A stretch of DNA of 64,000 bases from Amycolatopsis alba DSM 44262 (GTDB lineage Bacteria > Actinomycetota > Actinomycetes > Mycobacteriales > Pseudonocardiaceae): positions 1,513,021 to 1,577,020 of the forward strand of contig NZ_KB913032.1 of the NCBI RefSeq assembly GCF_000384215.1. The letters are read 5' to 3'. Below are positions 13,712-59,461 of the stretch, piece by piece. Under the pieces are notes generated by a model that did no database searches, had not been told where the DNA came from, and worked only from the letters and a program-made list of their open reading frames with translations. The translations under genes were made by a program, and so were the position numbers. Every line of letters begins with the position of its first letter. The stretch's first letter is position 1.

Positions 13712-13755
13712 GGGCTCCGGGACCGGTCGCCCCTCGCAGACCGGTACCGGAGCCC
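13712..13755. terminator. Hairpin behind the NmrA-like gene
   Basis: GGGCTCCGG-g-ACCGGT pairs with ACCGGT-a-CCGGAGCCC around a 12-base loop. It begins 10 bases after the stop of the upstream plus-strand gene, in the convergent gap before ku. It is very stable but lacks a T-tract, as is common for actinobacterial terminators. The rest of the gap to the ku stop holds nothing I can identify. Confidence 0.6.
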
Positions 13756-13947
13756 CTACGGAAGGCTCACCTCCCCGCGAGCCGACCGTAAGCACACTTG
13801 GCGAGCCGCACGGGATTTCGTATCGCCGGACCCCCAGTACCGGGCGATTCGCTTCCCGCGCTCTCTCCTCGCGATGGCATAACAATGCCCGGTCACCGTG
13901 GAGTCACGGGAGCGTGAAGACCCTCAACTGTCCCTGGGTAGAACTAC

Positions 13948-14808
13948 TCAACTGGTCTTGGCCGACGACGAAGCCCGCTTCGCCCGCGTCCGCGCCTGGC
14001 GCGCCTTGTCGGCCGCCTTCTTGGCCTTTTCGACAGGGGCACGGTCGGCCTCGACAGCGCTCTGCTGCAAGGCCGCCAGCAGCCGCGTCACGCCATCGGC
14101 CTGCTCGGCGGCGGTCGGCTGGAGGACGTCGTCCCCGTCCAGTTTGGCCTGGATGAGCGCTTCGAGCGCTTCCCGGTAGTGATCGGTGTAGCGGCCGGGG
14201 TCGAAGTCCTGTGTGAGGTCTTCGATGAGCGAGACGGCGTTCCGCAGTTCCCCGCGGCGCAGGTCGACGTCCTCGTGCAGGAACGGGAAATCGGGCCGCC
14301 GGACCTCGTCGGGCCACAGCATCGTCTCGAGCAGGATCACCTGGTCCCGCACGCGCAGCGCGCCCAGCGTCTCACGCTGCCGCAGCGTCACCTTCACGAT
14401 CGCGATCCGACCGGACTGCTGCAGCGCCTCGCTCAGCAGCACGTACGGCTTGGTGCCCGACGGCTCCGGTTCGAGGTAGTAAGTGCGTGCGAAGTACGTC
14501 GGGTCGACCTGCTCGGCCGGGGTGAACCCGACGACGTCCATCGACTGGGTGGTCGGCCCGAGCAGCGACGCGAAGTCGCGGCCGGTCAGGAGGACGACGT
14601 CGCCGTTGGGCACGGGGTGTCCCTTGGCGATCTCGGCCGCGGGCACCTCGGCACCGTCGACCTCGCAGACCCACTTCACCCGCACCCGGCCGCCGTCCGG
14701 CTCGTGCACCTGGTGGAGGGGGACGGTGCGCTCTTCGGTCGCGCTGTACGCCTTCACCGGGATGGCGTAGGTCCCGAATCCGATCGTGCCCTTCCACACC
14801 GCCCGCAT
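13948..14808 (-). CDS. ku: Ku protein for non-homologous end joining
   Basis: Bacterial Ku forms a ring on DNA double-strand ends and recruits the ligase LigD. The 286 residues match the core (MRAVWKGTIGFGTYAIPVKAYSATEE, DRETLGA-like LRQRETLGALRVRDQVILLETMLWPDEVR), followed by a lysine- and arginine-rich C-terminal tail (EKAKKAADKARQARTRAKRASSSAKTS) that typically aids DNA binding. The ATG at 14808 has GGAGGTGG just upstream; an in-frame start 10 codons earlier is less likely. No ligD gene is in the window. Confidence 0.95.
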   Translation of the reverse strand: MRAVWKGTIGFGTYAIPVKAYSATEERTVPLHQVHEPDGGRVRVKWVCEVDGAEVPAAEIAKGHPVPNGDVVLLTGRDFASLLGPTTQSMDVVGFTPAEQVDPTYFARTYYLEPEPSGTKPYVLLSEALQQSGRIAIVKVTLRQRETLGALRVRDQVILLETMLWPDEVRRPDFPFLHEDVDLRRGELRNAVSLIEDLTQDFDPGRYTDHYREALEALIQAKLDGDDVLQPTAAEQADGVTRLLAALQQSAVEADRAPVEKAKKAADKARQARTRAKRASSSAKTS

Positions 14809-14858
14809 GGCCCACCTCCGCCCGATCAGCGTAACCACGCGCCGAAGCGGCGGAACAG

Positions 14859-15293
14859 CTACAAACGGGTGTCAGGGGCGACCGATTCGCTCACACATTC
14901 GAATGACGGCCGTGATTCGGCGAGCGCGTCGGCCGAACAGCCGACAGCGGTGGCGGCCGCTCGGAGTACTTCCGCGACCACCTCGACGTCGACCATCGGG
15001 GCGGTGGACAGCGCGCCCTCGCCGCCCACTTCGACCCGGCCCGCCATGCCTTCGAGCGCGATGGCCAGCGCCTGCTGGCCCGCGACGAGATGCCGGACGA
15101 CCTTGAGCAGTTCGGGTACCGTCGCGGCGGTCCCGGACGCGGTCAGCGAGACGGCGAGGTCGTCCGCGCACGCCTGGAAATGAGAGGCGACGACGGTCGG
15201 CGGCAGTGTGATCCGGTGTGGTCCTGGCGAGTTCTGCCCGTGATCGAGCACGCGCTCACCGCCCTCCGGATCCGTCGGGTTTCGACCGCGCAC
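14859..15293 (-). CDS. Hypothetical protein upstream of ku
   Basis: A 144-residue protein I do not recognise. The N-terminal 35 residues are polar and may be a mis-assigned start. The rest (VVASHFQACADDLAVSLTASGTAATVPELLKVVRHLVAGQQALAIALEGMAGRVEV) looks like an amphipathic helical hairpin. Codon use agrees with a real gene. It lies 50 bases upstream of ku on the same strand and could be cotranscribed. Function unknown. Confidence 0.6.
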   Translation of the reverse strand: MRGRNPTDPEGGERVLDHGQNSPGPHRITLPPTVVASHFQACADDLAVSLTASGTAATVPELLKVVRHLVAGQQALAIALEGMAGRVEVGGEGALSTAPMVDVEVVAEVLRAAATAVGCSADALAESRPSFECVSESVAPDTRL

Positions 15294-15351
15294 ATCCTGC
15301 CACCGTCACCCTCCGCTCTTCGCGCGACACCCCGGACCGGGCGAGAAGGCG

Positions 15352-17661
15352 TCACGAAGCGGCCGCCAGCAGCGCGGCTTCGATCTTCGACCGCCACGCC
15401 TGGTCGACCCGGCCTGTCCGCGGCGCGACGGCGAACGAGTCGACGACGGCGCCGCCGAGGGTGGCCACCTTCGCCCAGCGCACCTCGGCCTCGCACCGGC
15501 GCAGCGCGCCCGCGACCCGGTACAGCAGCCCGATCCGGTTCGCGGCCCGCAGTTCGACCACGACCGTGTCCCGCCCGCTGGTCTCGTCGTCGAACCAGAT
15601 CACCTTCGCGTTCGCCGTGGGAGTCTCGCCGTAGTCCCGTTCCTTCGCCGCGAGCCGCTGGGTGAGCGGCATCGTCCCGGCCACGGCCCGCGCGAACTGC
15701 TCGCGCAGCAACGTGACGTCGGGCAGCGAGCCGAACTTCGGTGACGCCGTGAACACCCCCGCCCGTCCCCCGTCGTGCCCGCGCAGCACCGCCGCGTGGA
15801 CTTCCAAGGAGTTCAGGGCGAGCACCCCGGCGGCGGGCGCCAGCAGTTCGGCGCGGGCCGGTACCGCGAGCACCACAGTCACGATCTTGCCGACGGCGGT
15901 GATCCGCACTTCCCCGCGGCCGGACGCGACGGCTTCGGCGACGAGCTCCCGCTGTTCGGCGCCCATCGGCTCCGGTGGCACGAAACCCTTGCCGTGCAAC
16001 GCTTCCTCGCAACCCGACACGAGTTCGGCGAGCAGGCGGGCCTTCCAGTCGGTCCACACGCCCGGCCCGGTGGCCAGCGAATCGGCCGTCGTCAGCGCGT
16101 GCAGCAGTTCCAGCAGGACCAGGTTCTCGTCGAGCGTTTTCGTCACGCGCTGGATCGTGGCCGGATCGCTGATGTCCCGCCGTGTCGCGGTATGCGGCAG
16201 CAGCAGGTGATGCCGGACCATCGCCGACACCAGCGCCACATCGCTTGACGGCAGCCCGAGCCGGGCCGCCACCTGGGCGCTGATCTTCGCGCCGAGTTCG
16301 GAATGGTCCGTGTCGCGGCCCTTGCCGATGTCGTGCAGCAGCGCGCCGATCAGCAACAGGTCCGGCCGCGAAACGGTGGTCGTCAGTTTCGACGCCTCGA
16401 CGGCGGCGCGCACGAGATGCCTGTCGACGGTCCACGCGTGCACCGGCGACCTCGGCGGGAGATCCCGCACCGCACCCCATTCGGGGAACAGCCGCGCCCA
16501 CAGGCCAGTGCGGTCGAGCGCCTCGACGGCGTCGACGAGGCCTTCGCCCGCGCCGAGCAGTTCCACCAGCGCCTTGAGGGCATCGGCCGGCCACGGCGCG
16601 CGCAGTTCCGGCGCGGTATCGGCGAGTGCCCGCAAAGTCCCGTGCGCGATGGGCTTCCGGATCCGCGCCGACGCCGCGGCGACCCGCAGCAGCAACGCCG
16701 GATCCTTGGCGGGCAGCGCGTCCCGCGCCAGCGCGACCTCGTTCCCGTGCAGGACGACACCTTCGTCCAGTGGCGTCCGCACGGGCCGCCGCCCGAACCT
16801 GGCCTTCGGTGGCTCCACAGTGGACCGGAGCGCCACGTCGACCGCGTACGCGATCGTCCGGCCGGCGCCGGAAAGCTTGCGCGCCAAGGTGAACCTGTCG
16901 CCGAACCCGAGTTCGGCCGCGACCGTCCCGGCCTCGGGCGCGCTGAGGATGTCCCGCTCCCGGCGCAGTTCCCGGCGCAACTCCGTCCGGACGTCGAGCA
17001 GCAGGCCCTTGGCCGCCAGCAGTTCCTCGCCTGGCCTCGCTGTCAGCTGTGCCGCCGCGAGCGCCTCCAGGACGGCGAAGTCGCGAAGCCCGCCTCGGCC
17101 GTGCTTGAGATCCGGCTCGGCGGACTGCGCGATCTCGCCACTGCGAGCCCAGCGCTGCCGCACCGCGTCCGACAGTTCGCCCATCCGTTTCCGGGCGGTC
17201 CGCCGCCACTGGTCCCGCGCCGCGGCCGCCAGCCTGGCGGTGATCTCGGCGTCCCCGGCGATGTGGCGGATGTCGAGCAGCCCCATCGCGGTCCGCAGGT
17301 CCTCGGACGCCACCTTCAGCGCCTCACCCGGCGTGCGGACCGAGTGATCGAGGCCGATTTTGGCGTCCCACAACGGATACCAGATGGCGTCGGCGATCTC
17401 GCCGACGCGAGAGTTGCCGTTGTGCAGCAACAACAGGTCGAGGTCGGAGAAGGGCACCAGCTCGCTGCGCCCGAGGCCACCGACGGCGGCCAGCGCGACA
17501 CCGGGTTCAGCGGTGTCGACGCCGGCCGTCGCGGCGCCCTTTCCCAACCAGAATTCGTAGAGGTCGACGCACGCGGCCCGCAGTGCGGTCGCGCCCAGCC
17601 TCCCGTGCCTGCCCTCGAGCAAACGCTCGGTGGCCTTGACCAGCTCACCCCCGTCGGCCAT
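15352..17661 (-). CDS. glnD: PII uridylyltransferase/adenylyltransferase GlnD
   Basis: GlnD modifies and demodifies the PII protein in response to glutamine. The 769 residues carry the nucleotidyltransferase motif GGLGRSELVPFSDLDLLLL (about 61-79), the HD hydrolase motif LLHDIGKGRDTDHSEL (about 440-455) and two C-terminal ACT domains that sense glutamine (about 590-760). In actinobacteria the enzyme adenylylates rather than uridylylates PII. It is the last gene of amt-glnB-glnD, 9 bases after glnB. Confidence 0.95.
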   Translation of the reverse strand: MADGGELVKATERLLEGRHGRLGATALRAACVDLYEFWLGKGAATAGVDTAEPGVALAAVGGLGRSELVPFSDLDLLLLHNGNSRVGEIADAIWYPLWDAKIGLDHSVRTPGEALKVASEDLRTAMGLLDIRHIAGDAEITARLAAAARDQWRRTARKRMGELSDAVRQRWARSGEIAQSAEPDLKHGRGGLRDFAVLEALAAAQLTARPGEELLAAKGLLLDVRTELRRELRRERDILSAPEAGTVAAELGFGDRFTLARKLSGAGRTIAYAVDVALRSTVEPPKARFGRRPVRTPLDEGVVLHGNEVALARDALPAKDPALLLRVAAASARIRKPIAHGTLRALADTAPELRAPWPADALKALVELLGAGEGLVDAVEALDRTGLWARLFPEWGAVRDLPPRSPVHAWTVDRHLVRAAVEASKLTTTVSRPDLLLIGALLHDIGKGRDTDHSELGAKISAQVAARLGLPSSDVALVSAMVRHHLLLPHTATRRDISDPATIQRVTKTLDENLVLLELLHALTTADSLATGPGVWTDWKARLLAELVSGCEEALHGKGFVPPEPMGAEQRELVAEAVASGRGEVRITAVGKIVTVVLAVPARAELLAPAAGVLALNSLEVHAAVLRGHDGGRAGVFTASPKFGSLPDVTLLREQFARAVAGTMPLTQRLAAKERDYGETPTANAKVIWFDDETSGRDTVVVELRAANRIGLLYRVAGALRRCEAEVRWAKVATLGGAVVDSFAVAPRTGRVDQAWRSKIEAALLAAAS

Positions 17662-17670
17662 CGTGGGCGC

Positions 17671-19400
<1,730 letters not shown>

Positions 19401-19474
19401 AATCTTCCTCCCGTGCCTGGGGTGTACTGCGCAGGAATCCTTGGACCGGGGTGTTTCCTCGGGCGGCGATTCAG

Positions 19475-19522: not shown

Positions 19523-19575
19523 CGGAGACCGGGTGCGTTCTGTCCGGTTGCGAAACGCCGTGGTCGAATATCCCC

Positions 19576-21053: not shown

Positions 21054-21110
21054 AACACCGCGGTCCGCCCCCTGACCAGGGCCGGGGGCGGCGCGTGAGA
21101 GGGTGGCGGT

Positions 21111-21287
21111 ATGGCCAAACCGACGCCTCTGCAGCTCAGGAACATCGTCATGGCAGTGCTCATGGCGGGGGCCCTGGTGTGGAATCTGTCCATCAGCGGC
21201 GCTTGGTGGCTCACCGCGATCTTCTCGGTCGGTATCGTCCTTTCGCTGTTCTCCGCGTACCTGAACCGGCCCGGCGCTCAGCCCTGA
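21111..21287 (+). CDS. Small two-helix membrane protein, 58 residues
   Basis: MAKPTPLQLRNIVMAVLMAG begins a short protein with two hydrophobic helices (about residues 12-27 and 31-50) and the ending LNRPGAQP. It is too small for most gene callers but has a normal start, G/C-ending codons and a terminal 10-base overlap with allantoicase on the other strand. No family recognised. Confidence 0.65.
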   Translation: MAKPTPLQLRNIVMAVLMAGALVWNLSISGAWWLTAIFSVGIVLSLFSAYLNRPGAQP

Positions 21288-25074: not shown

Positions 25075-25953
25075 GTGGCCATCACCCTGGGCCCCAACCA
25101 GTACGGCAAGGCCGAAGTCCGGCTCGTCACCGTGCGGCGCGAAGGCACCGTCCACCACCTCAAGGACCTCACCGTCTCGACGTCGCTTCGCGGCGATCTC
25201 GCGGCCACGCACCTCACCGGCGACAACGCCGGCGTCGTCGCGACCGACACCCAGAAGAACACCGTCTACGCCTTCGCCAAGGAGTCCCCGGTCGGTGAGA
25301 TAGAGGACTTCGCGCTGCGGCTCGGACGGCATTTCGTCGACTCGCATCAGCACATCTCCGGTGCCCGGATCCTGATCGACGAACACGGCTGGAACCGGAT
25401 CTCCGGTCATGATCACGCGTTCTCCCAGGCGGGCAGCGAAAAGCGGACGACCGCGGTGACCGTCCAGGACGGTCAGGCCTGGGTGGTGTCCGGTTTGGAC
25501 GATCTCGTCGTGCTCAAGTCGACCGGATCGGAGTTCCACGGCTTCCCGCGCGACGAGTACACGACGCTGGCCGAGACGAACGACCGGATCCTCGCGACCG
25601 CCGTGACCGCGCGCTGGCGCTACCAGGGCGACGGGATCGACTGGGCCACGAGCCACGCGGAGGTCCGGCGGATCCTGCTGGAGACCTTCGCGGACAAGCA
25701 CAGCCTCTCCCTGCAGCAGACGCTGTACGCCATGGGAGAGGCTGTGCTCCAGGAACGCGAAGAGGTCGCCGAAGTCCGGCTTTCGCTGCCGAACAAGCAC
25801 CACTTCCTGGTGGATCTTTCGCCGTTCGGGCTGAAGAACGACAACGAGGTGTTCTTCGCCGCCGACCGCCCGTACGGCCTGATCGAGGGTGTGGTCCTCC
25901 GCGATGACGCGGAGGAGCCGGGACTGGCCTGGCACACCCTCGCCGCCTTCTGA
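25075..25953 (+). CDS. pucL: Urate oxidase (uricase)
   Basis: A 292-residue cofactor-free uricase that oxidises urate to 5-hydroxyisourate with release of H2O2. Family segments include YGKAEVRLVTVRR (catalytic lysine), GVVATDTQKNTVYAFAKE (catalytic threonine), ISGHDHAFSQ, LKSTGSEFHGF and the C-terminal NDNEVFFAADRPYGLI. It is the last gene of the operon; a double palindrome and a hairpin follow. Confidence 0.96.
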   Translation: MAITLGPNQYGKAEVRLVTVRREGTVHHLKDLTVSTSLRGDLAATHLTGDNAGVVATDTQKNTVYAFAKESPVGEIEDFALRLGRHFVDSHQHISGARILIDEHGWNRISGHDHAFSQAGSEKRTTAVTVQDGQAWVVSGLDDLVVLKSTGSEFHGFPRDEYTTLAETNDRILATAVTARWRYQGDGIDWATSHAEVRRILLETFADKHSLSLQQTLYAMGEAVLQEREEVAEVRLSLPNKHHFLVDLSPFGLKNDNEVFFAADRPYGLIEGVVLRDDAEEPGLAWHTLAAF

Positions 25954-25986
25954 TCGGGACATTGGACGTCTCTCGCGGGCGGCGGC

Positions 25987-26046
25987 GTTGCGAAAGCCAC
26001 TTTCGCAACGTTGGAGGTTGCGAAAGTGGCTTTCGCAACCTCCAAA
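25987..26046. repeat. Double palindromic repeat, GTTGCGAAAG family
   Basis: Unit 1 (25987-26009) is GTTGCGAAAG-CCA-CTTTCGCAAC. Unit 2 (26017-26039) is its reverse complement after a 7-base spacer, so the whole can fold on itself or as two hairpins. The second unit extends to 16-bp arms (26011-26046). An identical copy of unit 1 occurs at 54510 and a variant pair at 54419. It lies 33 bases after the uricase stop, in a convergent gap. Confidence 0.85.
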
Positions 26047-26070
26047 GCCGGCACACCGGTGAGCGAGGCC

Positions 26071-30251: not shown

Positions 30252-30302
30252 CCGTGAAGGCCTCCTTCCCTACCCTGAGAGTAGGGAAGGAGGCCTTCAC
30301 GG
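30252..30302. repeat. Long perfect hairpin, GTGAAGG family
   Basis: Perfect 22-bp arms (30252-30273 and 30281-30302) with the 7-base loop CCTGAGA; arm core GTGAAGGCCTCCTTC. It lies between two convergent stops, 6 bases after one and 5 before the other. A near-identical element with one arm mismatch is at 59415. Terminator and REP-like mobile palindrome are both plausible. Confidence 0.88.
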
Positions 30303-40795: not shown

Positions 40796-40823
40796 GCGAT
40801 CGACGAATCGCCCCTTCGGTGCC

Positions 40824-40849
40824 ACCGCAATTAGTCGGCTAATTGCGGT
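40824..40849. repeat. Hairpin ACCGCAATTAG-TCGG-CTAATTGCGGT
   Basis: Perfect 11-bp arms with a tetraloop, A/T-rich in the stem, 29 bases after the GNAT stop at a convergent junction. Its composition differs from the G/C-rich terminators elsewhere. It may be a terminator or a member of a third palindromic repeat family. Confidence 0.75.
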
Positions 40850-40850
40850 G

Positions 40851-41096
40851 AAGGGAAAGGCAAAAGTGTCCTGTCGGACGGACACCCGAACCCGCCTGTG
40901 GTCTCAGTGACACCAGTAGTCACGGGCGGTGCCGCGTCACGCCCCGCCGGGGTTCGGGTGCCCCCGCGCCGCGCTTCGGGATGTCTCAAAGGGGCCCTTC
41001 AGGACGGTGAACGTCCCACAGGTGGCCTTCAAGACATGACGTCGAGCCACCCGATCCCCGGTCGTCCCCAACGACACAACACGTTTGCCTTTCCCC
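40851..41096. other. Non-coding segment bounded by imperfect inverted repeats
   Basis: No gene lies between the GNAT and TetR genes (about 300 bases). The segment begins with GGGAAAGGCAAA-a-GTGT and ends with the reverse complement of GGGAAAGGCAAA-c-GTGT; similarity extends over about 24 bases with a few mismatches. Inside is a degraded palindrome ATGTCT...AGACAT (about 40982-41037) containing AAAGGGGCCCTTCAGG and GGTGGCCTTCA fragments related to the GTGAAGG family. It looks like decayed repeats; no ORF or transposase remains. Confidence 0.5.
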
Positions 41097-41735
41097 TCAA
41101 TAAACGCGAGACCCGGAGGGCGAAGCCAGGTATGCCAGCGCCATCCCGGTCGTTTCACCAGCCCACTCACTCCAGCTCAGGTCGTCCGGCCAGAACCGGC
41201 CACTGGCGGCCCGGTGCACGCAGGAACCGATGATCGTCCGGCTCACCACGCGGACGGCCCGCTCCCGATCCGCCCCGGCGCACGAGCGAGCGGCTTCGAC
41301 GAACTCGTCCTGGATCGTGGCCAGTGCCTGGAGGCCGCGATCGCGTCCCTCGGCGCGCTGATTGTCGAGCAGCTCGGGGAAGATCCGGTCGTGGCGGGCG
41401 AAGGTGTCCGCCAGCGCCTGGACGAACGCGCCGACGATCCCGCTCAGACCGGGCTCCGCCGCGCGAAGGGCTTCGCTGACGCTGGTCTCCAGTTGTCCGA
41501 GCAGCTGGTCTTTCACCGCGTACAGCAGCTGGTTCTTGCCCGCGAATCGGCGATAGATCGCCCCCACCGACATTCCGGCCTGCTCGGCGACCGCGCCGAC
41601 GGTGAACTCCTCGATGCCTTGGCTCGCCAGTACATGCTCGGCCGCGGCCAGCACCTTCTGCAAGGACTCCCGGCTGCGGGCCTGCTGCGGCGGACGGAAA
41701 CCTTGATCGACGGTCTGCTGGCTCACCGACCGCAC
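41097..41735 (-). CDS. TetR/AcrR family transcriptional regulator
   Basis: A 212-residue TetR regulator with the DNA-binding domain SRESLQKVLAAAEHVLASQGIEEFTVGAVAEQAGMSVGAIYRRFAGKNQLLYAV. The start is GTG; a second GTG three codons later is possible. It is divergent from an ABC-type ATPase gene, with a palindrome in the gap, and probably controls that gene and itself. Confidence 0.9.
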   Translation of the reverse strand: MRSVSQQTVDQGFRPPQQARSRESLQKVLAAAEHVLASQGIEEFTVGAVAEQAGMSVGAIYRRFAGKNQLLYAVKDQLLGQLETSVSEALRAAEPGLSGIVGAFVQALADTFARHDRIFPELLDNQRAEGRDRGLQALATIQDEFVEAARSCAGADRERAVRVVSRTIIGSCVHRAASGRFWPDDLSWSEWAGETTGMALAYLASPSGSRVY

Positions 41736-41800: not shown

Positions 41801-42559
41801 ATGGTGAGCATCGAGGTACAGAGCGCCTACGTCGATTTCCCGATCTTCGACGCCAAGACCCGGTCACTCAAGAAACAGGTGCTCGGCAAGGTCGGCGGCA
41901 AGATCGGCACCGACGCGAAAGTCCCGATCATCGAGGCCCTGCGGGACATCTCGCTCTCCTTGAGCGACGGCGACCGAGTCGGCCTGGTCGGCCACAACGG
42001 CGCCGGGAAGTCCACTCTCCTGCGCCTGCTGTCCGGAATCTACGAACCGACCAGGGGCAGCACGCGGGTCGTCGGCAGGATCGCGCCGGTGTTCGATCTC
42101 GGCGTGGGACTGGACCCCGAGGTCTCGGGGCACGAAAACATCCTGATCCGGGGCCTGTTCCTCGGCATGTCCCGCAAGCAGATGGCGAAACGCGTCGACG
42201 ACATCGCGGAGTTCACCGAACTCGGCGACTACCTGCACCTTCCCCTGCGCACCTACTCCGCAGGCATGCGGGTGCGGCTCGCGCTCGGCGTGGTGACCAC
42301 CATCGACCCCGAGATCCTCATCCTCGACGAGGGGCTCGGCGCGATCGACGCCGCGTTCCTCGCCAAGGCACGCGAACGACTGGTCGACCTCGCCCGCCGC
42401 TCCGGCGTACTGGTGTTCGCCTCGCACTCCGACGAACTGCTGCGGGAGCTGTGTACCACCGCCCTTTGGCTGGACGAGGGCCGGATCCGCGCGCACGGAT
42501 CACTGGACGAGGTTCTCGCGACCTATCACGGCATTCAGAGGAAGATCTTGACCAGCTGA
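41801..42559 (+). CDS. ABC transporter ATP-binding protein, Wzt/TagH-like, without permease
   Basis: A 252-residue ATPase of the polysaccharide/teichoic-acid export subfamily. Walker A GHNGAGKSTLLRLLSG, signature TYSAGMRVRLALG and Walker B ILILDEGLGAIDAAF are intact, and the N-terminal segment VQSAYVDFPIFDAKTRSLKK resembles mycobacterial RfbE (galactan export). The partner permease Wzm is not in the window. It ends 25 bases inside the convergent RHH-like gene. The ATG is preferred over a GTG 5 codons upstream. Confidence 0.88.
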   Translation: MVSIEVQSAYVDFPIFDAKTRSLKKQVLGKVGGKIGTDAKVPIIEALRDISLSLSDGDRVGLVGHNGAGKSTLLRLLSGIYEPTRGSTRVVGRIAPVFDLGVGLDPEVSGHENILIRGLFLGMSRKQMAKRVDDIAEFTELGDYLHLPLRTYSAGMRVRLALGVVTTIDPEILILDEGLGAIDAAFLAKARERLVDLARRSGVLVFASHSDELLRELCTTALWLDEGRIRAHGSLDEVLATYHGIQRKILTS

Positions 42560-42780
42560 TCCTGCCCGTCCGGATCCCGCAGCACGACCTGTTTGCCCGC
42601 ACGGATTTCCGCGTCGACGAACTCGTAGATCAGCAACGCGCGATTGACCAGGTCGACCTTCTTCAACCCGGTGCGCGCCTGCAGTTTGCCCAGCGCGTCG
42701 ACCGCCTCGGCGATCAGCGCGACATTGACGCGATCGACCACCGCGGGGCGGCCGGTCGCGGTCTCCTCGACCGATGGCAT
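42535..42780 (-). CDS. Small ribbon-helix-helix-like protein
   Basis: An 81-residue protein: RVNVALIAEAVDALGKLQARTGLKKVDLVNRALLIYEFVDAEIRAG has the beta-helix-helix pattern of RHH DNA-binding or antitoxin-like proteins, followed by KQVVLRDPDGQDQLVKIFL. No toxin partner is adjacent. It overlaps the 3' end of the ATPase gene on the other strand. DNA-binding is inferred from the pattern only. Confidence 0.72.
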   Translation of the reverse strand: MPSVEETATGRPAVVDRVNVALIAEAVDALGKLQARTGLKKVDLVNRALLIYEFVDAEIRAGKQVVLRDPDGQDQLVKIFL

Positions 42781-43499: not shown

Positions 43500-43561
43500 G
43501 GTTGAGCAGCGGCTGCGGGAGCGCCTGCCTCGAAAGGCGTTCCCTCAGCCGCTGCTCAACC
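43500..43561. terminator. Bidirectional long hairpin between convergent genes
   Basis: GGTTGAGCAGCGGCTG (43500-43515) pairs perfectly with 43546-43561, and the inside (GGGA-n-CGCCT with AGGCG-n-TCCC) pairs further, giving a stem of more than 25 bp. It begins 10 bases after one stop codon and includes the stop of the convergent gene. A strong bidirectional terminator is the simplest reading. Confidence 0.75.
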
Positions 43562-46437: not shown

Positions 46438-47214
46438 GTGGCAGCGGAGAAGAACGGGCGCGATGGCGGCGTCCAGTCACTTCAGCGAGCCTTCGAGCTC
46501 CTCGAGCATCTCGCGGACACCGGCGGCGAGGCCAGCCTCTCGGAGCTGGCGACCCTGTCCGGGCTGCCGATGCCGACCATCCACCGGCTGATCAGGACGC
46601 TGGTGGACCTGGGTTACGTCCGGCAGAACACCAACCGCCGGTACGCGCTGGGCGCGCGGCTCATCCGGCTGGGTGAGAACGCCAGCATGCAGTTCGGCTC
46701 GTGGGCGCGGCCGCTGCTCGCGGAGCTGGTCGACGAGGTCGGCGAGACCGCGAACCTCGCCGTCCTGGAACGGGACGAGGTCGTCTACGTCGCCCAGGTG
46801 CCGTCGAAGCACTCGATGCGGATGTTCACCGAGGTCGGGCGCCGTCTCCTGCCGCACGGCACCGGCGTGGGAAAGGCGATGCTCGCGCACCTGCCGTCCG
46901 ACGACGTCACGGCGCTGCTGGTCAGGACCGGCATGCCCGCGTACACCGAGCACACCTTCACCGACCAGGACGCGCTTCTGCGTGAGCTGGCGAGGATCGC
47001 CCAGCAGGGTTATGCGCTCGACGAAGCCGAGCAGGAACTGGGCGTCCGCTGCGTGGCCGTCGCGGTCCCCGGCGCGCCGGTGCCGGCGGCGGTCTCGGTG
47101 TCCGGGCCTTCGGGACGGCTCACGATGGAGGCCGTCGAGCGGATCGCGCCCGTCGTCCAGCGGATCGCGACCTCGCTCGGCTCCACCCTTTCGCGTGACG
47201 GGGTCACCGTTTGA
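46438..47214 (+). CDS. allR: IclR family regulator, probable AllR
   Basis: A 258-residue IclR regulator: winged helix GVQSLQRAFELLEHLADTGGEASLSELATLSGLPMPTIHRLIRTLVDLGYVRQ and a C-terminal ligand domain (LAVLERDEVVYVAQVPSKHSMRMFTEVGRRLLPHGTGVGKAML). Divergent from aceB. In Streptomyces coelicolor an IclR-type AllR represses allantoinase, allantoicase and malate synthase genes, and the cluster content here matches. The GTG start follows AAGGAG. Confidence 0.9.
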   Translation: MAAEKNGRDGGVQSLQRAFELLEHLADTGGEASLSELATLSGLPMPTIHRLIRTLVDLGYVRQNTNRRYALGARLIRLGENASMQFGSWARPLLAELVDEVGETANLAVLERDEVVYVAQVPSKHSMRMFTEVGRRLLPHGTGVGKAMLAHLPSDDVTALLVRTGMPAYTEHTFTDQDALLRELARIAQQGYALDEAEQELGVRCVAVAVPGAPVPAAVSVSGPSGRLTMEAVERIAPVVQRIATSLGSTLSRDGVTV

Positions 47215-48042: not shown

Positions 48043-49524
48043 ATGAACGAGACGCCGACGCGTGACCCGCGCCGCTGGTGGATCCTGATCGTGCTGTGCC
48101 TGAGCACGCTCGTGCTGGTCGTGGACAACATGGTGCTGACGGTCGCCGTGCCGCCGCTGGCCGAAGACCTCAAGGCGAGCGCCCAGGACACGCAGTGGAT
48201 CCTGGACTCCTACATCCTGGTGTTCGCCGGCCTGCTGCTCACCTCGGGAAGTCTCGGGGACCGGTTCGGCCGCCGGAAGGTGATGATCATCGGCCTGCTC
48301 CTGTTCGGGGTGGCCTCACTCGTCGCCGCGCTGGCCTCGAATCCCCTGGAACTGATCCTGTCCCGCGCGGCGATGGGCGTCGGCGGCGCGCTGATCATGC
48401 CGAGCACCCTGTCCATCCTGATCACCGTCTTCGACGACGCCGAACGCCGGAAGGCGATGGCGGCGTGGAGCGCGGTCGCGATGCTCGGCCTGATCGGCGG
48501 CCCGGTACTGGGCGGCGTGCTGATCGCGTGGTTCTGGTGGGGCGCGGTGTTCCTGATCAACGTGCCGATCGTCGTCATCGCCGTGCTCGCCGCGCTCACC
48601 CTGATGCCGGAATCCCGTGGCCCGTGGCAGAAGCCCGACCCGCTCGGCACGATCCTGTCCGCGACCGGCATGGTCGCGCTGGTCTGGACGATCATCGAAC
48701 TGCCCAAGCACGGCATCGCCGAAGCAGGCACCCTGGTCCCGCTGGCGATCGCGGTGGTGAGCCTGACCGGCTTCGTTTTCTGGGAACGGCACACGCCGTC
48801 GCCGATGGTCCCGCTCAAGCTGTTCCGCAAGCGCAACTTCAGCGGCGGCAGCCTCTCGCTCACGCTGGTGCAGATCGGCAACGGCGGGCTGCTGCTGCTC
48901 CTGACCCAGTACCTGCAGTTCGTGCTCGGCTACACCCCGACCCAAGCGGGCTTGGCGTTCATCCCGATGGCCGTCGCGTCGCTGCTCTGCAACACCCTCG
49001 GCGCCACACTGGGCCAGAAGATCGGGAACCGCGCGCTGGCCACGGCCGGGATGACCGTGATGGCCGCCGGATTCGGCCTGCTCGGGACTCTGTCGACGAC
49101 TTCGGGCTTCCTGCTGACGGCGATCGCGCTGTTCCTGCTCGGCGCAGGCGGCGGGCTGGCGATGCCCGCGGCGATCTCGGCGCTGATGGGCGAGGTCCCT
49201 CAGGAGCAGGCCGGTGTCGGCTCCGCGCTCAACGACACCATCCAGCAGCTGGGCGCCGCGCTCGGCATCGCGATCCTGGGCAGCGTCGTGTCCAGCCTGT
49301 TCACCGCGCACATGCCCGACTCCGCACCGGCTCAGGCGCGGCTTTCGATCGGCGACGCCTTCGCCACCGGTGACAGCGGAGTCATCGCGGCGGCCCGCGA
49401 GTCGTTCACCTCGGCGATGTCGACGACGTTCGTCGTGAGCGCGGCCGGGGTGCTGGTGGCGGCGGTGGTCGCGTTCGTGGTGATGCGGGACAAGCAGGCG
49501 GAACCTGCGCTCGTCAGTTGCTGA
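48043..49524 (+). CDS. MFS multidrug exporter, DHA2 (14-helix) family
   Basis: A 493-residue drug:proton antiporter. MFS motif A appears as GSLGDRFGRRKVMIIG, motif C-like RAAMGVGGALIMPSTLSIL, and the overall hydrophobicity fits 14 helices. Substrate unknown. Regulated by the adjacent TetR protein (inference). The start ATG is preceded by a weak GGGGG site; the open frame upstream is the promoter. Its end overlaps ftsY by 11 bases. Confidence 0.92.
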   Translation: MNETPTRDPRRWWILIVLCLSTLVLVVDNMVLTVAVPPLAEDLKASAQDTQWILDSYILVFAGLLLTSGSLGDRFGRRKVMIIGLLLFGVASLVAALASNPLELILSRAAMGVGGALIMPSTLSILITVFDDAERRKAMAAWSAVAMLGLIGGPVLGGVLIAWFWWGAVFLINVPIVVIAVLAALTLMPESRGPWQKPDPLGTILSATGMVALVWTIIELPKHGIAEAGTLVPLAIAVVSLTGFVFWERHTPSPMVPLKLFRKRNFSGGSLSLTLVQIGNGGLLLLLTQYLQFVLGYTPTQAGLAFIPMAVASLLCNTLGATLGQKIGNRALATAGMTVMAAGFGLLGTLSTTSGFLLTAIALFLLGAGGGLAMPAAISALMGEVPQEQAGVGSALNDTIQQLGAALGIAILGSVVSSLFTAHMPDSAPAQARLSIGDAFATGDSGVIAAARESFTSAMSTTFVVSAAGVLVAAVVAFVVMRDKQAEPALVSC

Positions 49525-52183: not shown

Positions 52184-52192
52184 GAGATACGG

Positions 52193-53776: not shown

Positions 53777-53892
53777 TCACAACGGTTTCTGACTATATGT
53801 GACCTGCGTCACAGTCATGAACAAGCCTCTGGTCATCTCCGTGTCGGCGATGGGACCCGCCGGCACACGGCGGGCTGAGGAGAGGCGAAATC

Positions 53893-54396: not shown

Positions 54397-54418
54397 TCGG
54401 TGACGGAGGCTCGGAAGC

Positions 54419-54471
54419 GTCGCGAAAGCCACTTTCGGGACGTCAGGTGTCCCGAAAGTGGCTTTCGCGAC
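54419..54471. repeat. Hairpin with 23-bp perfect arms, GCGAAAG family
   Basis: GTCGCGAAAGCCACTTTCGG and three more bases (54419-54441) pair perfectly with 54449-54471 around the 7-base loop GTCAGGT. The GCGAAAG-CCA-CTTTCG core is the one at 25987 and 54510, with the outer bases changed on both arms so pairing is kept. It lies in the convergent gap between the DUF3455 gene and smc. Confidence 0.85.
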
Positions 54472-54509
54472 ATCGACGGACGCAAGCGGGCGGGCTGGTG
54501 GAAGGCGGT

Positions 54510-54532
54510 GTTGCGAAAGCCACTTTCGCAAC
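54510..54532. repeat. Identical copy of the 23-bp palindrome at 25987
   Basis: GTTGCGAAAG-CCA-CTTTCGCAAC, identical over 23 bases to 25987-26009 some 28 kb away, and 38 bases after the preceding hairpin. Together they form a second double element. The remaining 60 bases up to the smc stop show nothing else. Confidence 0.85.
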
Positions 54533-54592
54533 ATCCGAGGCCGACATGCACGCGAGTGAGCCGGCACCTTTGCCTTACCCCGCAAACAAACG

Positions 54593-57500
54593 CTACGCGG
54601 GAACAGGGTCCTCTTCAGCGGTCCGGAGCCGCTGCGAGATCACCTTGGTGATGCCGTCGCCCTGCATCGACACGCCGTACAGGGCGTCGGCGATCTCCAT
54701 GGTCGGCTTCTGGTGGGTGATGATGATCAGCTGCGAAGAATCGCGCAGCTGCTCCAGCAGCCCGATCAGCCGTCGCATGTTGGTGTCGTCGAGCGCGGCC
54801 TCGACCTCGTCCATGACGTAGAAGGGCGAAGGCCGGGCGCGGAAGATCGCGACCAGCATGCCGACGGCGACGAGCGACTTCTCGCCACCGGAGAGCAGCG
54901 AGAGCCGCTTGACCTTCTTGCCCGGCGGGCGCGCCTCGACGTCGACACCGGTGGAGAGCAGGTCGTTCGGCTGCGTGAGCACCATGCGTCCCTCGCCGCC
55001 GGGGAACAGCACGCCGAACACGGTCTCGAACTCGCGCGCGACATCTTCGTACGCCGATTCGAAGACCTCGAGGATCTTTTCGTCGACCTGCTTGATGACC
55101 GCTTCGAGGTCCTTGCGGGTGTCCTTGAGGTCTTCGAGCTGCGTCGAGAGGAACTTGTAGCGCTCCTCCAGCGCCGCGAACTCCTCCAGCGCCAACGGGT
55201 TGACCTTGCCCAGCAGGCTCAGGTCCTTCTCCGCGCGCTTCGCCCGGCGGGCCTGGGTGTCACGGTCGAACGGCATGGGCGGCGGCTGGGTGACGTCCTC
55301 GCCGCGTTCCTTGGCGGCCTCGTACTCGGCCATCTCCCCCGCGCTCGGCGGGACGGGGACGTCCGGGCCGTACTCGGAAACGAGGTCCTCGAGGCCGATG
55401 CCGAAGTCCTCGGCGATCTTGGTTTCGAGCTGCTCCAGCCGCAGCCGCTGCTCGGCACGCAGCACCTCGTCGCGGTGGACGGCGTCGGTGAGCTTCTCCA
55501 GTTCGCCGGTCAGCTCGCGGACCTTGCTGCGGACCTGGGTCAGCGCGGTCTCCCGTGACTGCCGCTGCGCCTGCGCCTCGTCCCGTTCGTGGGCGGCGCG
55601 CTGCACGGAGACCTCGATGCGTTCGAGCGCGATCTCGCCGCCGTTGACCACCGCGTTGGCGATCTCGGCGCCGCGTTTCCGCGCGGCCCTGGACTTTTCG
55701 GCACGTTCACGGGCCTGCCGCTCGGCGTGCGCGGCACGGCGGAGCGATTCGGCCTTGCCCTGGATGCTCCGCGCGCGCTCCTCGGCGGTGCGCAGCGCGA
55801 GGCGGGACTCCATCTCCTCCTGGCGGACCGTGCCGAGGTCTTCGGCGGCCTGGTCGCGCTCGGCGGTGTCCGGATCCTCGTCGACCTCCTGGTCGGCGAC
55901 GGCGGCGAGCCGCTCTTCGAGTTCGGCGAGCTGCTGAAGCGCCTGCTCCCGGCTCTGCTCGACCTTGGCGCGCTGAGTGCTCAGCCGGTCCATCTCGGCC
56001 TGCGCGCCGCGCGCGGCTTGCTGCAGCCTGTTCAGCCGCTCGGACGAGCGGGCCTTGCGGACCTTCGCGTCCCCGAGCGCTTCCTTGGCCCTGCCGACTT
56101 CTTCGCGCCGGGCCTGCTGTCCGGCGCGGGCGCCTTCGAGTTCGGCGGCGGTGCGTTCCAGCGCGCGCTCGGCGGCGTGCAACCGGTCGCCCGCCTCGTC
56201 GACGGCGGCCTGGACTTCGATGACGCTCTCGCTGCGGGCGGAACCACCGGCCGCCCAGCGGGCCCCGAAGACGTCGCCCTCGGGCGTGACCGTGCTGACC
56301 TCGGGATACACCTCGACGAGACGGCGCGCGGACTCCAGACCGTCCACAATGGCCACCCGGTCGAGCGCGTGCTCGACGGCGGACCGCAGCGCTGGCGGCG
56401 CCGTGACCACTTCGCGTGCCCAGCGCGCGCCCTGGGGCAGCGACGGCCAGGATCCGGTGTCCACAACGGACCCCAGCCCGCCGAGCAGGATGCCGGCGCG
56501 GCCGGAGTCGTTGTCCTTCAAGAACTTCAGCGCGTCGAGCGCGTCGGCACCACCGTTGACCGCGACCGCGTCGGCGACCGGGCCGAGCGCCGCGGCCAGC
56601 GCGACCTCGTGGCCCGCCTCGACGGTGAGCAGCGCGGCCACCGAGCCGAGCAGTCCCGGCAGCTCGTGCTGCGCGCCGAGCAGCGCCCCGGCGCCGTCCT
56701 TGCGGCGCAAGCCCATCGACAGCGCCTCGACGCGCGCCTTCTCCGACGCGATCTCGCGTTCGGCGGCGCGCTCGGCCTTGACCAGTTCCTCGACCCGCGC
56801 CTTGGCGGCGTTGTTGGCCTCCACCGTGCGGTCGTGATGGGCCTGCAGGTCGACGTCGTCGGATTCTTCGACGCCGCCTTCGGCTTTGGCTTCTTCCAGC
56901 TCTTCGACGGCGATTTCCGCGCGCTCGGCGGACTCTTCGAGCGAAACGGTGAGCCTGTCGATCTCGTCGGAGGTGGCGCCGTTCTTGCTGCGCAGCGCCT
57001 CGACCTGCCCGGCGAGCTTCGCCAGCCCCTCCCGCCTGTCGGCGATGGCGCGGACAGCGGCCATATGCGCGCGTTCGGCGGCCTGGACGAGGTGTTCGAG
57101 CTGCTCACGCTTCTGGACGGTCTCCGAAAGCACCATCCGGGCCTCGGCGACGGCCTCGTTGAGCTCCTGCTCCTGCTCGGCGACGTGCTCGGCCTCGGCC
57201 AGCAGCTCGTCCGGGTCGCGGCCGGTGCTCGCCTGCTGCACGTCGGACGACAGGTGCCGCTGACGCTCCAGCGCGAGCCGCACGGTGCCGCGCAACCGCT
57301 CCGTCAGCGCGGAAAGCTTGTACCAGGTCTCCTGGGCCGCGGCCAGGCGCGGCGCGTCCTCGGCGAGCGACGCTTCGAGCTCGGCCTCCTCGGCCGCGAC
57401 GATCTCCAGCGCCTGCTCGACCTCACCGCGACGCTGACGGGCGACGCGCTCGTCGGCCTCTTCCTTGGCGATGCCCTCGCGCTGGGAGACCAGGTCGTGG

Positions 57501-58192
57501 GCGAACAGCCGCAGCCGGGCGTCACGCAGTTCGGACTGCACCCACTGCGCCTTGCGGGCGATCTCGGCCTGTTTGCCCAGCGGTTTGAGCTGACGGCGAA
57601 GCTCGGTGGTGAGGTCGCCGAGGCGGTCGAGGTTGCCCTGCATGTTCGCGAGCTTGCGCAGGGTCTGTTCCTTGCGCTTGCGGTGCTTGAGGACGCCCGC
57701 GGCCTCTTCGATGAAGGCGCGGCGCTCCTCGGGCTTGGATTCGAGGATCGCCGAAAGCTGACCCTGACCGACGATCACGTGCATCTCGCGGCCGATACCG
57801 GAGTCCGACAGCAGTTCCTGCACGTCCATCAGACGGCAGCGGTCGCCGTTGATCTCGTATTCGCTCGCGCCGTCACGGAACATCCGGCGGGTGATCGAGA
57901 CCTCGGAGTACTCGATGGGCAGCGCGCCGTCGGCGTTGTCGATGGTGAGGGTGACCTCGGCGCGCCCGAGCGGGGCGCGGCCGGCGGTCCCGGCGAAGAT
58001 GACGTCCTCCATCTTGCCGCCGCGCAGATCCTTCGCGCCCTGGGTGCCCATGACCCAGCGAAGCGCGTCGAGGACGTTCGACTTACCGGAGCCGTTCGGC
58101 CCGACCACACAGGTGATACCCGGCTCGAAACGCAGCGTCGTCGCCGAGGCGAAGGACTTGAAGCCCTTGAGCGTCAGGCTCTTCAGGTGCAC
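54593..58192 (-). CDS. smc: Chromosome segregation protein SMC
   Basis: The 1199-residue condensin subunit organises and segregates the chromosome with ScpA and ScpB. Walker A VVGPNGSGKSNVLDALRWVMG (about 30-50), long coiled-coil arms rich in E, R, A and Q, a central hinge (about 510-640, with LPGLLGSVAALLTVEAGHEVALAAALG), and the C-terminal head with LSGGEKSLVAVGMLVAIF and FYVMDEVEAALDD. Length is normal. Long antisense ORFs here are shadows. Next to acyP, as in mycobacteria. Confidence 0.98.
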   Translation of the reverse strand: MHLKSLTLKGFKSFASATTLRFEPGITCVVGPNGSGKSNVLDALRWVMGTQGAKDLRGGKMEDVIFAGTAGRAPLGRAEVTLTIDNADGALPIEYSEVSITRRMFRDGASEYEINGDRCRLMDVQELLSDSGIGREMHVIVGQGQLSAILESKPEERRAFIEEAAGVLKHRKRKEQTLRKLANMQGNLDRLGDLTTELRRQLKPLGKQAEIARKAQWVQSELRDARLRLFAHDLVSQREGIAKEEADERVARQRRGEVEQALEIVAAEEAELEASLAEDAPRLAAAQETWYKLSALTERLRGTVRLALERQRHLSSDVQQASTGRDPDELLAEAEHVAEQEQELNEAVAEARMVLSETVQKREQLEHLVQAAERAHMAAVRAIADRREGLAKLAGQVEALRSKNGATSDEIDRLTVSLEESAERAEIAVEELEEAKAEGGVEESDDVDLQAHHDRTVEANNAAKARVEELVKAERAAEREIASEKARVEALSMGLRRKDGAGALLGAQHELPGLLGSVAALLTVEAGHEVALAAALGPVADAVAVNGGADALDALKFLKDNDSGRAGILLGGLGSVVDTGSWPSLPQGARWAREVVTAPPALRSAVEHALDRVAIVDGLESARRLVEVYPEVSTVTPEGDVFGARWAAGGSARSESVIEVQAAVDEAGDRLHAAERALERTAAELEGARAGQQARREEVGRAKEALGDAKVRKARSSERLNRLQQAARGAQAEMDRLSTQRAKVEQSREQALQQLAELEERLAAVADQEVDEDPDTAERDQAAEDLGTVRQEEMESRLALRTAEERARSIQGKAESLRRAAHAERQARERAEKSRAARKRGAEIANAVVNGGEIALERIEVSVQRAAHERDEAQAQRQSRETALTQVRSKVRELTGELEKLTDAVHRDEVLRAEQRLRLEQLETKIAEDFGIGLEDLVSEYGPDVPVPPSAGEMAEYEAAKERGEDVTQPPPMPFDRDTQARRAKRAEKDLSLLGKVNPLALEEFAALEERYKFLSTQLEDLKDTRKDLEAVIKQVDEKILEVFESAYEDVAREFETVFGVLFPGGEGRMVLTQPNDLLSTGVDVEARPPGKKVKRLSLLSGGEKSLVAVGMLVAIFRARPSPFYVMDEVEAALDDTNMRRLIGLLEQLRDSSQLIIITHQKPTMEIADALYGVSMQGDGITKVISQRLRTAEEDPVPA

Positions 58193-58281
58193 GGCGTGCT
58201 GACCCCTCTGGCTGCGGGAACCGGTCGTTCAATCGGCCCAGGCTACCTGTGTGCCCTGGGTGATCGTGGGACGCGGGGGCG

Positions 58282-58569
58282 TCAGCGCTCCACGAACCCG
58301 CGGATCCCACCTTTCGCGGGCGACCAGCGCTCGACGACATGATCCACACTTCCGGGTGATTCGCCGGATCTCAAAGCCGCCAAAAGCCGCTCACAGTGTT
58401 CCCGAACACCCTCCGCTATCACCTCGACACGTCCGTCGGCGAGGTTGCCCGCGCTGCCGACCAACCCCAGCTCAAGCGCCCGACTGCGGGTCCACCAGCG
58501 GAAACCGACCCCCTGCACCCGGCCGTGCACCCACGCGGTCAGCCGGATTCGCGTTACTTCTTCACTCAC
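58282..58569 (-). CDS. acyP: Acylphosphatase
   Basis: A 95-residue acylphosphatase that hydrolyses carboxyl-phosphate bonds. Residues VHGRVQGVGFRWWTRSRALELGLVGSAGNLADGRVEVIAEG contain the catalytic arginine (VGFR) and asparagine (GNLADGRV). The GTG start (VSEEVTRIRL) gives the usual length; the open frame continues upstream without homology. Its position next to smc is conserved in actinobacteria. Confidence 0.93.
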   Translation of the reverse strand: MSEEVTRIRLTAWVHGRVQGVGFRWWTRSRALELGLVGSAGNLADGRVEVIAEGVREHCERLLAALRSGESPGSVDHVVERWSPAKGGIRGFVER

Positions 58570-58627
58570 ACCCCCTATCGTGCACCATGCGGATGAACGC
58601 GGAGGGTGAACACAACGTTCGCAGCGG

Positions 58628-58656
58628 TTCGCAGACAGTGAGGTCACGGTGATAAT
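58628..58656 (+). promoter_or_regulatory. Promoter TTCGCA-n17-GATAAT
   Basis: TTCGCA (58628-58633) and GATAAT (58651-58656) with 17-bp spacing, the -10 preceded by GGT (extended -10 type). It would drive the membrane-anchored protein gene about 100 bases downstream. The rest of the divergent gap with acyP shows nothing more. Confidence 0.5.
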
Positions 58657-58766
58657 CTCCGCGCCGGGTCCCCACTTTGGGCTACGTCACCCAGGTAGCC
58701 GGAAACGTCTCGGTGTCTCTCACCAGTCGCTTCACTCCCCGAAGTCCCCCATCCGAGGAGTCAGCC

Positions 58767-59402
58767 ATGCCCCGTCCCGACGGGTCTGATCCGAGCGCAC
58801 GCGTGTCCGTGGCACCCCCGCGCGGCGCCACCGGCAAGCTCAACCGCGCCGGCTACGCCGTACTCGGCGTCAGCGGCCTCGTGGTGGCGACGGCCTTCGC
58901 CGCGATCGCCGAACTCGCGGGCCCCGGTGTCTCGGCCACCGCGGGTGGCACCGGCGTCCCCGGCGGCGGGCAAGGTGTCGCTCCCGCCGGTGCCCAGCTG
59001 GTCCCCGGCAACGCCGTCCCCGGCGGCCCGATGACCGTCAGCGGCTCGCCGACCCCTGGCGCGCCCTCCAGTTCGACGGCGCCGCCGACCACGGTGACTT
59101 CGGTCGGCCCGGACGGCAAGAAGACGACGAGCGTCGTCACCCCGCCCCCGCCGGTGGTGCCCCCGCCCGGTGGCGGCGAGCCGCCGGTGGTGGTGCCGCC
59201 GACGACGCCGACCACTCCGAAGCCCACCCCCACACCGACGAAGACGACGACGCCCACACCGACGACCCCGACCTCGACGCCGTCACCGGATCCGTCGTCG
59301 AGCCCGCCGGGTGGCGGCTCCAGCTCCAGCGGTGCCCCGGACTCGTCGCCGGGCCGGTCGAGCACCTCGGGCACCGACACGTCCACCAGCAGCGCCCGGT
59401 AA
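58767..59402 (+). CDS. Membrane-anchored Pro/Thr/Ser-rich protein
   Basis: A 211-residue protein. A short cytoplasmic N-terminus with arginines is followed by one membrane helix (about 34-56, GYAVLGVSGLVVATAFAAIAELAG). The rest is an extended low-complexity wall-spanning region rich in P, T, S and G (PPTTPTTPKPTPTPTKTTTP and similar), a likely target of O-mannosylation. No folded domain follows, so it may be a spacer or lack a recognised partner. The ATG has a GAGGAG ribosome-binding site. Confidence 0.82.
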   Translation: MPRPDGSDPSARVSVAPPRGATGKLNRAGYAVLGVSGLVVATAFAAIAELAGPGVSATAGGTGVPGGGQGVAPAGAQLVPGNAVPGGPMTVSGSPTPGAPSSSTAPPTTVTSVGPDGKKTTSVVTPPPPVVPPPGGGEPPVVVPPTTPTTPKPTPTPTKTTTPTPTTPTSTPSPDPSSSPPGGGSSSSGAPDSSPGRSSTSGTDTSTSSAR

Positions 59403-59414
59403 GACTTCTGGTCC

Positions 59415-59461
59415 GTGAAGGCCTCCTTGCCTACCTTGAGGGTAGGGAAGGAGGCCTTCAC
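59415..59461. repeat. Hairpin, GTGAAGG family
   Basis: 20-bp arms with one mismatch (59415-59434 and 59442-59461) and the 7-base loop CTTGAGG. The core GTGAAGGCCTCCTT and the right arm are the same as in the hairpin at 30252, 29 kb away. It begins 13 bases after a stop codon at a convergent junction. Confidence 0.85.

Follow-up and report, generated by a model that had tools for sequence, protein, structure and literature searches.

Hairpins at gene junctions

We investigated the long hairpins that lie between gene ends in a stretch of 64,000 nucleotides (positions 1,513,021-1,577,020; hereafter the window) of the 9.81-Mb single-contig genome of Amycolatopsis alba DSM 44262, a soil actinobacterium. 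Besides convergent gene pairs parted by a spacer, the window holds four that overlap end to end (near 21280, 42545, 47210 and 49520; Table 1). A sequence-only reading of the window, made by a model, had placed a long inverted repeat at every convergent junction without overlap. The repeats at 13712, 25987, 30252, 43500, 54419 and 59415 were found again, while that at 40824 is merely a 12-bp stem with a 4-nt loop, below the arm length of at least 15 bp used in our scan. The repeat at 59415 had been set apart as preceding kdpE; the hairpin is there, but because it lies between an open reading frame (ORF) on the + strand and kdpE on the - strand, it marks a seventh convergent junction. The scan found no hairpin at any of the four overlapping pairs, as had been stated, and loops of exactly 7 nt occur in three of the repeats (25987, 30252 and 54419) rather than four, the other loops being of 10, 8, 5 and 4 nt. 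A perfect 27-bp hairpin in a co-directional spacer (3018-3076), the longest perfect one of the window, had been overlooked. Dinucleotide shuffles folded less well than any of the seven named hairpins, the hairpin at 3018 or a solo palindrome at 54510 (z from -3.5 to -14.2; 0/200 shuffles as good). No Rfam family matched the window at gathering score.

The proposed genome-wide check for enrichment at convergent junctions was run on 17% of the genome, a sample of 1.664 Mb consisting of the window, a 400-kb stretch adjoining it and three further 400-kb stretches. Gene calling used a home-made method based on codon usage, hairpins were scanned for without gaps (arms of at least 15, loops of 3-12, at most 2 mismatches), and spacers of more than 40 bp were counted by junction class. 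The enrichment was confirmed: a hairpin was found in 80/122 convergent, 72/409 co-directional and 7/248 divergent spacers (Fisher p = 6e-23 for convergent versus co-directional and 5e-41 versus divergent), compared with 0.2/122 shuffled convergent spacers (mean of 5 replicates). The word "every" thus holds for the window (7/7 after correction, one of them short) but not for the sample. In total, 228 hairpins were found, 26 of them inside called genes. The spacing of convergent gaps is bimodal; a hairpin was present in 2/131 pairs lying at most 40 bp apart (129 without) and in 25/34 with gaps of 41-80 bp. Judged from sequence, most convergent pairs touch or overlap or have between them a long hairpin, which probably halts transcripts arriving from either side.

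A hairpin was considered stop-adjacent if it lay from -10 to 30 nt from a stop codon, which was observed for 60/110 hairpins in convergent and 47/85 in co-directional spacers. The earlier remark that T-tracts are lacking was broadly right. At least 3 T in the next 8 nt were found after 39/132 hairpin ends near stops, compared with 17% of 11,478 background positions, and 93/132 had fewer than 3 (mean T 1.92, background 1.44). Only 17/132 ends had at least 4 T, short of the U-rich tract by which L-shaped terminators are recognized.

The bias was also observed in other genomes. Hairpins occupied 26/54 convergent, 26/102 co-directional and 1/135 divergent spacers in 34 loci from named Amycolatopsis, 30/67, 39/213 and 1/74 in Arthrobacter-type loci, and 3/10, 2/23 and 0/16 in a thin set of Pseudonocardia-type loci. 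The general pattern thus extends beyond this genome and, as the Arthrobacter-type loci are biased alike, fits the known U-poor actinobacterial terminator.

Palindrome families and their placement

Hairpins were assigned to families F1-F5 and F7 by motif rules of our own making, which are less strict for F5 and F7, both small classes. Grouping by similarity placed 119/228 hairpins, about half, in clusters of at least three, and merged F1 and F2 through intermediates into one cluster of 92. F1 (n = 41) was found in 27 convergent and 13 co-directional spacers and one called gene, F2 (n = 46) in 22 convergent, 22 co-directional and one divergent spacer and one called gene, and F3 (n = 20) in 16 convergent, 3 co-directional and one divergent spacer; F4, F5 and F7 had 6, 7 and 4 members, and 104 hairpins fell outside the motif classes. 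The family counts near stops separate two groups: F2 (35/44), F4 (5/6), F5 (5/7), F7 (4/4) and hairpins outside the families (49/75) are mostly stop-adjacent, while F1 (7/40) and F3 (2/19) lie mostly mid-spacer. The sequence-only reading had offered G/C-rich terminators and palindromic elements tolerated only at convergent junctions as alternatives. Each fits one part, the terminators the stop-adjacent group and the elements the mid-spacer group, but "only there" fails, given how often F2 and F1 are co-directional.

These placements bear on the idea that all hairpins are passive passengers, akin to repetitive extragenic palindromic (REP) elements, surviving where no gene or promoter is broken, with convergent spacers the most tolerant. 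The dispersed families, two of them nearly limited to the genus, the mid-spacer position of F1 and F3, the nesting described below, the scarcity of hairpins in divergent spacers and the only moderate retention at orthologous junctions would all agree with it. But the F2, F4, F5 and F7 hairpins lie within 30 nt of stops instead of being scattered over the 3' spacer. A bias is also present among the 109 hairpins from clusters of one or two (convergent spacers 38, co-directional 41, divergent 5, called genes 25), although co-directional spacers of more than 40 bp outnumber convergent ones 3.4-fold and divergent ones do so twofold. In addition, 46 outgroup loci held no F1 or F2 match, and outgroup loci free of these families show the bias as well. 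We consider it rather unlikely that all the hairpins are passengers.

F1 dyads (23 + 7 + 23 nt) number 48, of which 37 are distinct; the loop is 7 nt in 36/41 F1 hairpins, and their spacers are often wide (median gap 319 bp). When 36 distinct sequences were folded as one long hairpin, 95.9% of cells were paired and 6 pairs had changed on both sides, compared with 93.6% and 4 pairs for folding as two short palindromes. In covariation score as well as in the share of paired cells, the long hairpin beat 500/500 shuffles. Variation occurs at positions 20 and 34 but not at 4 and 50, which breaks short pairs in 12 and 14 of 36 sequences and long pairs in 9/36. As the F1 sequences are related copies, this is modest evidence, and the long hairpin is favored modestly over two short palindromes.

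REP elements and bacterial interspersed mosaic elements (BIMEs) bind gyrase, and the hairpins could likewise act not as RNA but on DNA or supercoiling, serving in the manner of BIMEs as sites for gyrase or a nucleoid protein that relieve positive supercoils where genes converge. F1 would suit such a role with its mid-spacer position, often in wide spacers, and with halves that are themselves palindromes, as the site of a dimeric protein would be. Yet the changes in the F1 stem are somewhat more compatible with the long hairpin than with two short palindromes, and the stop-adjacent families are hard to fit; we regard action at the DNA level as clearly improbable.

Two F1 subfamilies were observed, with loops near GTTGAAG/CTTCAAC and GTCTGAT/ATCAGAC (25987-26039 and 54419-54471 in the window). 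F1 is otherwise nearly self-complementary, and the loop largely fixes the orientation of the element. Outside the 53-nt dyad (for example, within 25950-26060), complementarity was above chance at positions 1-3 (21-25/48) and 6 (20/48), so the stem is often longer than the repeat. Many F2 hairpins have the outer stem (G)TCCGTGAAGGCCTCCTT in common, while the inner stem varies (CCCTACC, GAGGGACT and others), with both arms altered together.

Nesting was counted for F4 by one-to-one pairing of arms, excluding the 3' arms of closed hairpins. We found 11 closed pairs and 11 split by 70-700 nt with an arm match of at least 16, a value reached by 8% of random arm pairs. Another hairpin was enclosed by 7 of the 11 split pairs. 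Several of the split pairs open at the apex, and in two the left break bears TTGAGGGGTAAGG-type ends. In the whole genome, this end sequence was matched 19 times on the forward and 11 times on the reverse strand (control 0).

Among the window's features, the DUF6986 stop codon (43556-43558) is part of the hairpin stem itself, and a like arrangement was seen in loci L095, L099 and L109; with proteins from named Amycolatopsis species, the DUF6986 protein shares up to 97% identity. The ORF before the kdpE junction had no Pfam match and is 74-92% identical in 5/5 congeners, and the - strand frame 42535-42780 had a match in only 1/5.

Table 1. Hairpins and overlapping convergent gene ends of the window
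Feature	Position	Structure	Junction and remarks
F2-type hairpin	3018-3076	27-bp perfect stem, loop 5	co-directional, DUF2469 / UPF0102 genes; 7 nt past DUF2469 stop (- strand)
Hairpin outside families	13712-13755	17-bp arms, 1 mismatch, loop 10	NmrA-like (+) / Ku (-); 9 nt past + stop
Overlapping convergent stops	21278-21287	TCA...TGA in 10 bp; no hairpin	+ frame is a 58-aa ORF
F1 dyad	25987-26039	two inverted 23-nt palindromes, 23-bp perfect stem, loop 7	uricase (+) / TAP-like hydrolase (-); 33 nt past uricase stop
F2 hairpin	30252-30302	22-bp stem, loop 7	one stop at 5 nt, the other at 4 nt
Short hairpin	40823-40850	12-bp stem, 4-nt loop	GNAT (+) / TetR (-); adjoins inverted-repeat unit with TTGAGGGG-type ends
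Overlapping convergent ends	42535-42559	no hairpin	ABC transporter frame (+) / reading frame 42535-42780 (-)
Hairpin outside families	43500-43561	27-bp arms, 2 mismatches, loop 8	takes in DUF6986 stop (- strand)
Convergent overlap	47204-47214	11 nt; no hairpin	identical state in A. alba and 5/5 congeners
Convergent overlap	49514-49524	11 nt; no hairpin	no hairpin in A. alba, G303, G090
F1 dyad (subfamily b)	54419-54471	23-bp perfect stem, loop 7	DUF3455 (+) / SMC (-); 22 nt past + stop
Solo F1 palindrome	54510-54532	10-bp core stem, loop 3	
F2 hairpin	59415-59461	21-bp arms, 1 mismatch, loop 5	12 nt past ORF 58677-59402 (+); faces kdpE (59628-60329, -)

Distribution and turnover among related genomes

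The F1 palindrome was found at 474 places in the A. alba genome with up to 3 mismatches (control 0). With up to 2 mismatches, it was present in 8/298 genomes of the order, all of them within the 11 of its own genus (305, 2, 160, 95, 371, 289, 0, 44, 0, 2 and 0 matches), and in 0/287 others. For F1, forward and reverse matches coincide in place, and a dyad consists of two palindromes. The 18-nt F2 core, with up to 1 mismatch, had 188 forward and 196 reverse matches in A. alba and 50-193 per strand in four other own-genus genomes, compared with at most 1 in each of 115 other-genus genomes of the family, three of which have one. Both families are nearly confined to Amycolatopsis among the genomes searched, and their abundances are independent, genome G055 having 2 F1 and 80 F2 matches. 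A 91-bp F1 region had no match in plasmid and phage records. None of the titles and abstract openings found in literature searches mentioned these families, and four literal core sequences had no match in the paper texts searched.

To follow hairpins at orthologous junctions, 464 kb of A. alba were compared with 470 kb of the related genome G303 (337 reciprocal best protein pairs, median identity 94.2%), using hairpin arms of at least 14. At 50 shared convergent junctions, a hairpin was observed in both genomes in 19 cases, in A. alba only in 7, in G303 only in 3 and in neither in 21. The corresponding counts were 11, 4, 7 and 175 for 197 co-directional junctions and 1, 1, 1 and 54 for 57 divergent ones. 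At the 19 junctions with hairpins in both, the best match was at least 0.75 in 11, 0.70 in 1 and at most 0.56 in 7, while hairpins from unrelated junctions had a median of 0.54 and reached 0.75 in 10.5%. Hence, 7/19 shared junctions carry unlike hairpins, at the level of unrelated junctions. Counted singly, 15/28 A. alba hairpins, including the extra hairpins of wide spacers, had no G303 counterpart above 0.56. Retention of stop-adjacent hairpins is moderate, and F1 or F3 hairpins were kept in G303 at 3/8 A. alba convergent junctions.

Single junctions vary in the same manner. An F2-type hairpin was present at the 30252 junction in all 4 congeners in which the junction was found (it was not found in G336). 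Four different hairpins occupy the DUF3455/SMC junction across A. alba and three congeners, and the kdpE junction has a hairpin of one of several kinds in all five congeners. A survey of filled and empty sites gave 138 flank-pair matches, 72 with the same spacing, 50 with other spacing and 16 below 15 nt. The cleanest case is the overlap at 21278-21287, where the stops overlap in A. alba, G303, G090, G076 and G340 and a 62-nt hairpin stands in G336; a second clean site lies at A. alba 387705 / G303 414885. At the 49514-49524 overlap, G076 and G340 have a spacer of 62-64 nt with a hairpin 3-5 nt from both stops, and G336 has a 662-nt gap holding a hairpin. As the end of the + gene also differs here, the filled and empty states give no direction of change.

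At the uricase junction, 10/17 loci had the right frame (the other 7 were excluded as misread); six of these have touching or overlapping stops without a hairpin, three have F1, and one has a wide nested spacer. Direct repeats around 208 hairpins were no better than those of shuffled flanks, although very short target-site duplications would not show. In L204, which holds this junction in G090, a stretch of about 20 bp from the end of the uricase gene recurs across a 271-bp spacer with nested palindromes, as if duplicated by an insertion; this candidate target-site duplication was a single case that did not generalize. L202 comes from a close relative (G299), whose contig 124 stops at this junction, no more than about 190 bp from the end of the uricase gene; such repeats may break draft assemblies.

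Predicted termination and possible mobility

We favor, with a probability of about 0.68, the reading that the stop-adjacent hairpins are bidirectional U-poor terminators or 3' barriers and that dispersed palindrome families supply hairpins. A hairpin within about 30 nt of a stop would act as a U-poor (I-shaped) terminator or 3'-end barrier in both directions, and because the stem is symmetrical, one hairpin could serve both converging transcripts. Overlapping or touching pairs would manage without one. In Amycolatopsis, many of these hairpins are members of the dispersed families F2, F4, F5 and F7, while the mid-spacer palindromes (F1 dyads and F3) may spread into spacers as small non-autonomous elements, moved by some enzyme, and may nest between the arms of older hairpins. 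As a junction would need a stable hairpin and not a particular sequence, one family could replace another through selection for structure. The function would be ordinary and the supply unusual, the terminator-type hairpins at convergent ends coming in this genus in part from dispersed and perhaps mobile palindrome families.

Several observations weigh against this reading. No such hairpin was found in 42/122 convergent spacers of more than 40 bp, and the home-made gene calling misplaced at least the 59415 and 40824 junctions. A stop-adjacent hairpin other than F1 or F3 was kept in G303 at only 10/19 A. alba convergent junctions. Shared hairpins showed few substitutions (5 compensated pairs, 4 broken and 1 G-U, with 7 hairpin pairs left out for unequal loops), and the folding of F1 as two short palindromes likewise beat 500/500 shuffles on both measures. 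The 34 named Amycolatopsis loci (687 kb around DUF6986) had no F1 or F2 at the cut-offs used, yet the convergent bias was present; even within the genus, the two families are thus not universal. With no direct repeats above control, the hairpins lack a usual signature of transposition, and deletion of a hairpin can account for some empty sites. A looser count of 15 split F4 pairs was rejected because it took in 3' arms of closed hairpins, and even among the strict 11, G090 26007 may still be such an arm.

The stop-adjacent group resembles the I-shaped terminator as far as sequence can tell. Streptomyces clavuligerus Term-seq is reported to give strongly folded, U-lacking 3' ends, with longer stems at bidirectional ends (PMC8269248), TERMITe gives Streptomyces the longest hairpins and weakest U enrichment (PMC12207403), and a mycobacterial review places I-shaped terminators up to 50 bp from the stop (PMC12288462). 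Shared with these U-poor I-shaped or HS-U-lack terminators of high-GC Actinobacteria are long stable stems soon after stops, few U and a placement for both strands; the hairpins here mostly have a weak U-tract or none and, outside F1 and F3, mostly a stem within about 50 bp of a stop. They differ in that about half of the sampled hairpins belong to dispersed similar families and in that termination is predicted here from the hairpins themselves. U-poor termination in high-GC bacteria is still debated, and the reference titles of the mycobacterial review include papers for and against a U-tract requirement (PMC12288462). Recurrent gene-end hairpins with natural variants, empty sites and unlike orthologous hairpins offer a ready test set for what a terminator requires.

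The build of F1 also suggests a REPIN, a pair of inverted REP sequences, mobilized by a REP-associated tyrosine transposase (RAYT, a Y1 transposase). REPINs are described as moved by RAYTs (PMC8049555), and in a REP survey, palindromes tagged GTAG or CGTC lie by both 3' ends of convergent genes in Pseudomonas entomophila and Sphingomonas wittichi (PMC3733652); in the main text of that survey, the word Actinobacteria does not occur. F1 shares with REPINs two inverted short palindromes across a short spacer, high copy number with hundreds of matches nearly all outside called genes, and frequent placement at convergent 3' ends. F1 fails the RAYT and tag tests, though. PF01797 (Y1_Tnp) had no match in A. 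alba or in any of 80 genus genomes (positive control, 5/14), so a RAYT would have to be too divergent for Pfam or since lost, and GTAG stands beside 0/48 and CGTC beside 4/48 F1 dyads. F1 further differs in its 23-bp stem with a loop that is mostly 7 nt. Mobilization by a RAYT is highly improbable. A transposase between paired F1 copies was also sought, but the sample held one pair 300-4000 bp apart, and an insertion-sequence-like frame, recognized by eye, lay beyond the second copy.

Only tentatively can we suggest that RAYT-independent mobile palindromes enter convergent gene ends and hairpin apices, so that terminators would be transposable and replaceable and junctions would alternate between overlap and an inserted terminator. 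Should the families prove mobile, selfish DNA would form part of the boundaries of transcription units here, and a mobilizing enzyme would be yet to be found.

Miniature inverted-repeat transposable elements (MITEs) have terminal inverted repeats. The hairpin families differ from MITEs in showing no target duplication above control, and a side unit resembles them, with inverted TTGAGGGGTAAGGCAAACGTG ends bounding about 200-365 bp in gene spacers (40854-41100; 54565-54585). The motif GGTAAGGCAAAGGTG, considered at first as a 3'-end terminator signal, is in fact the end of a larger inverted-repeat unit. The TTGAGGGGTAAGGCAAACGTG-ended unit sometimes sits in an F4 apex (GGTTA, then TTGAGG...CCTCAA, then TAGAAC), possibly with a TA duplication. 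At the SMC junction, only its right-hand end was found, at 54565.

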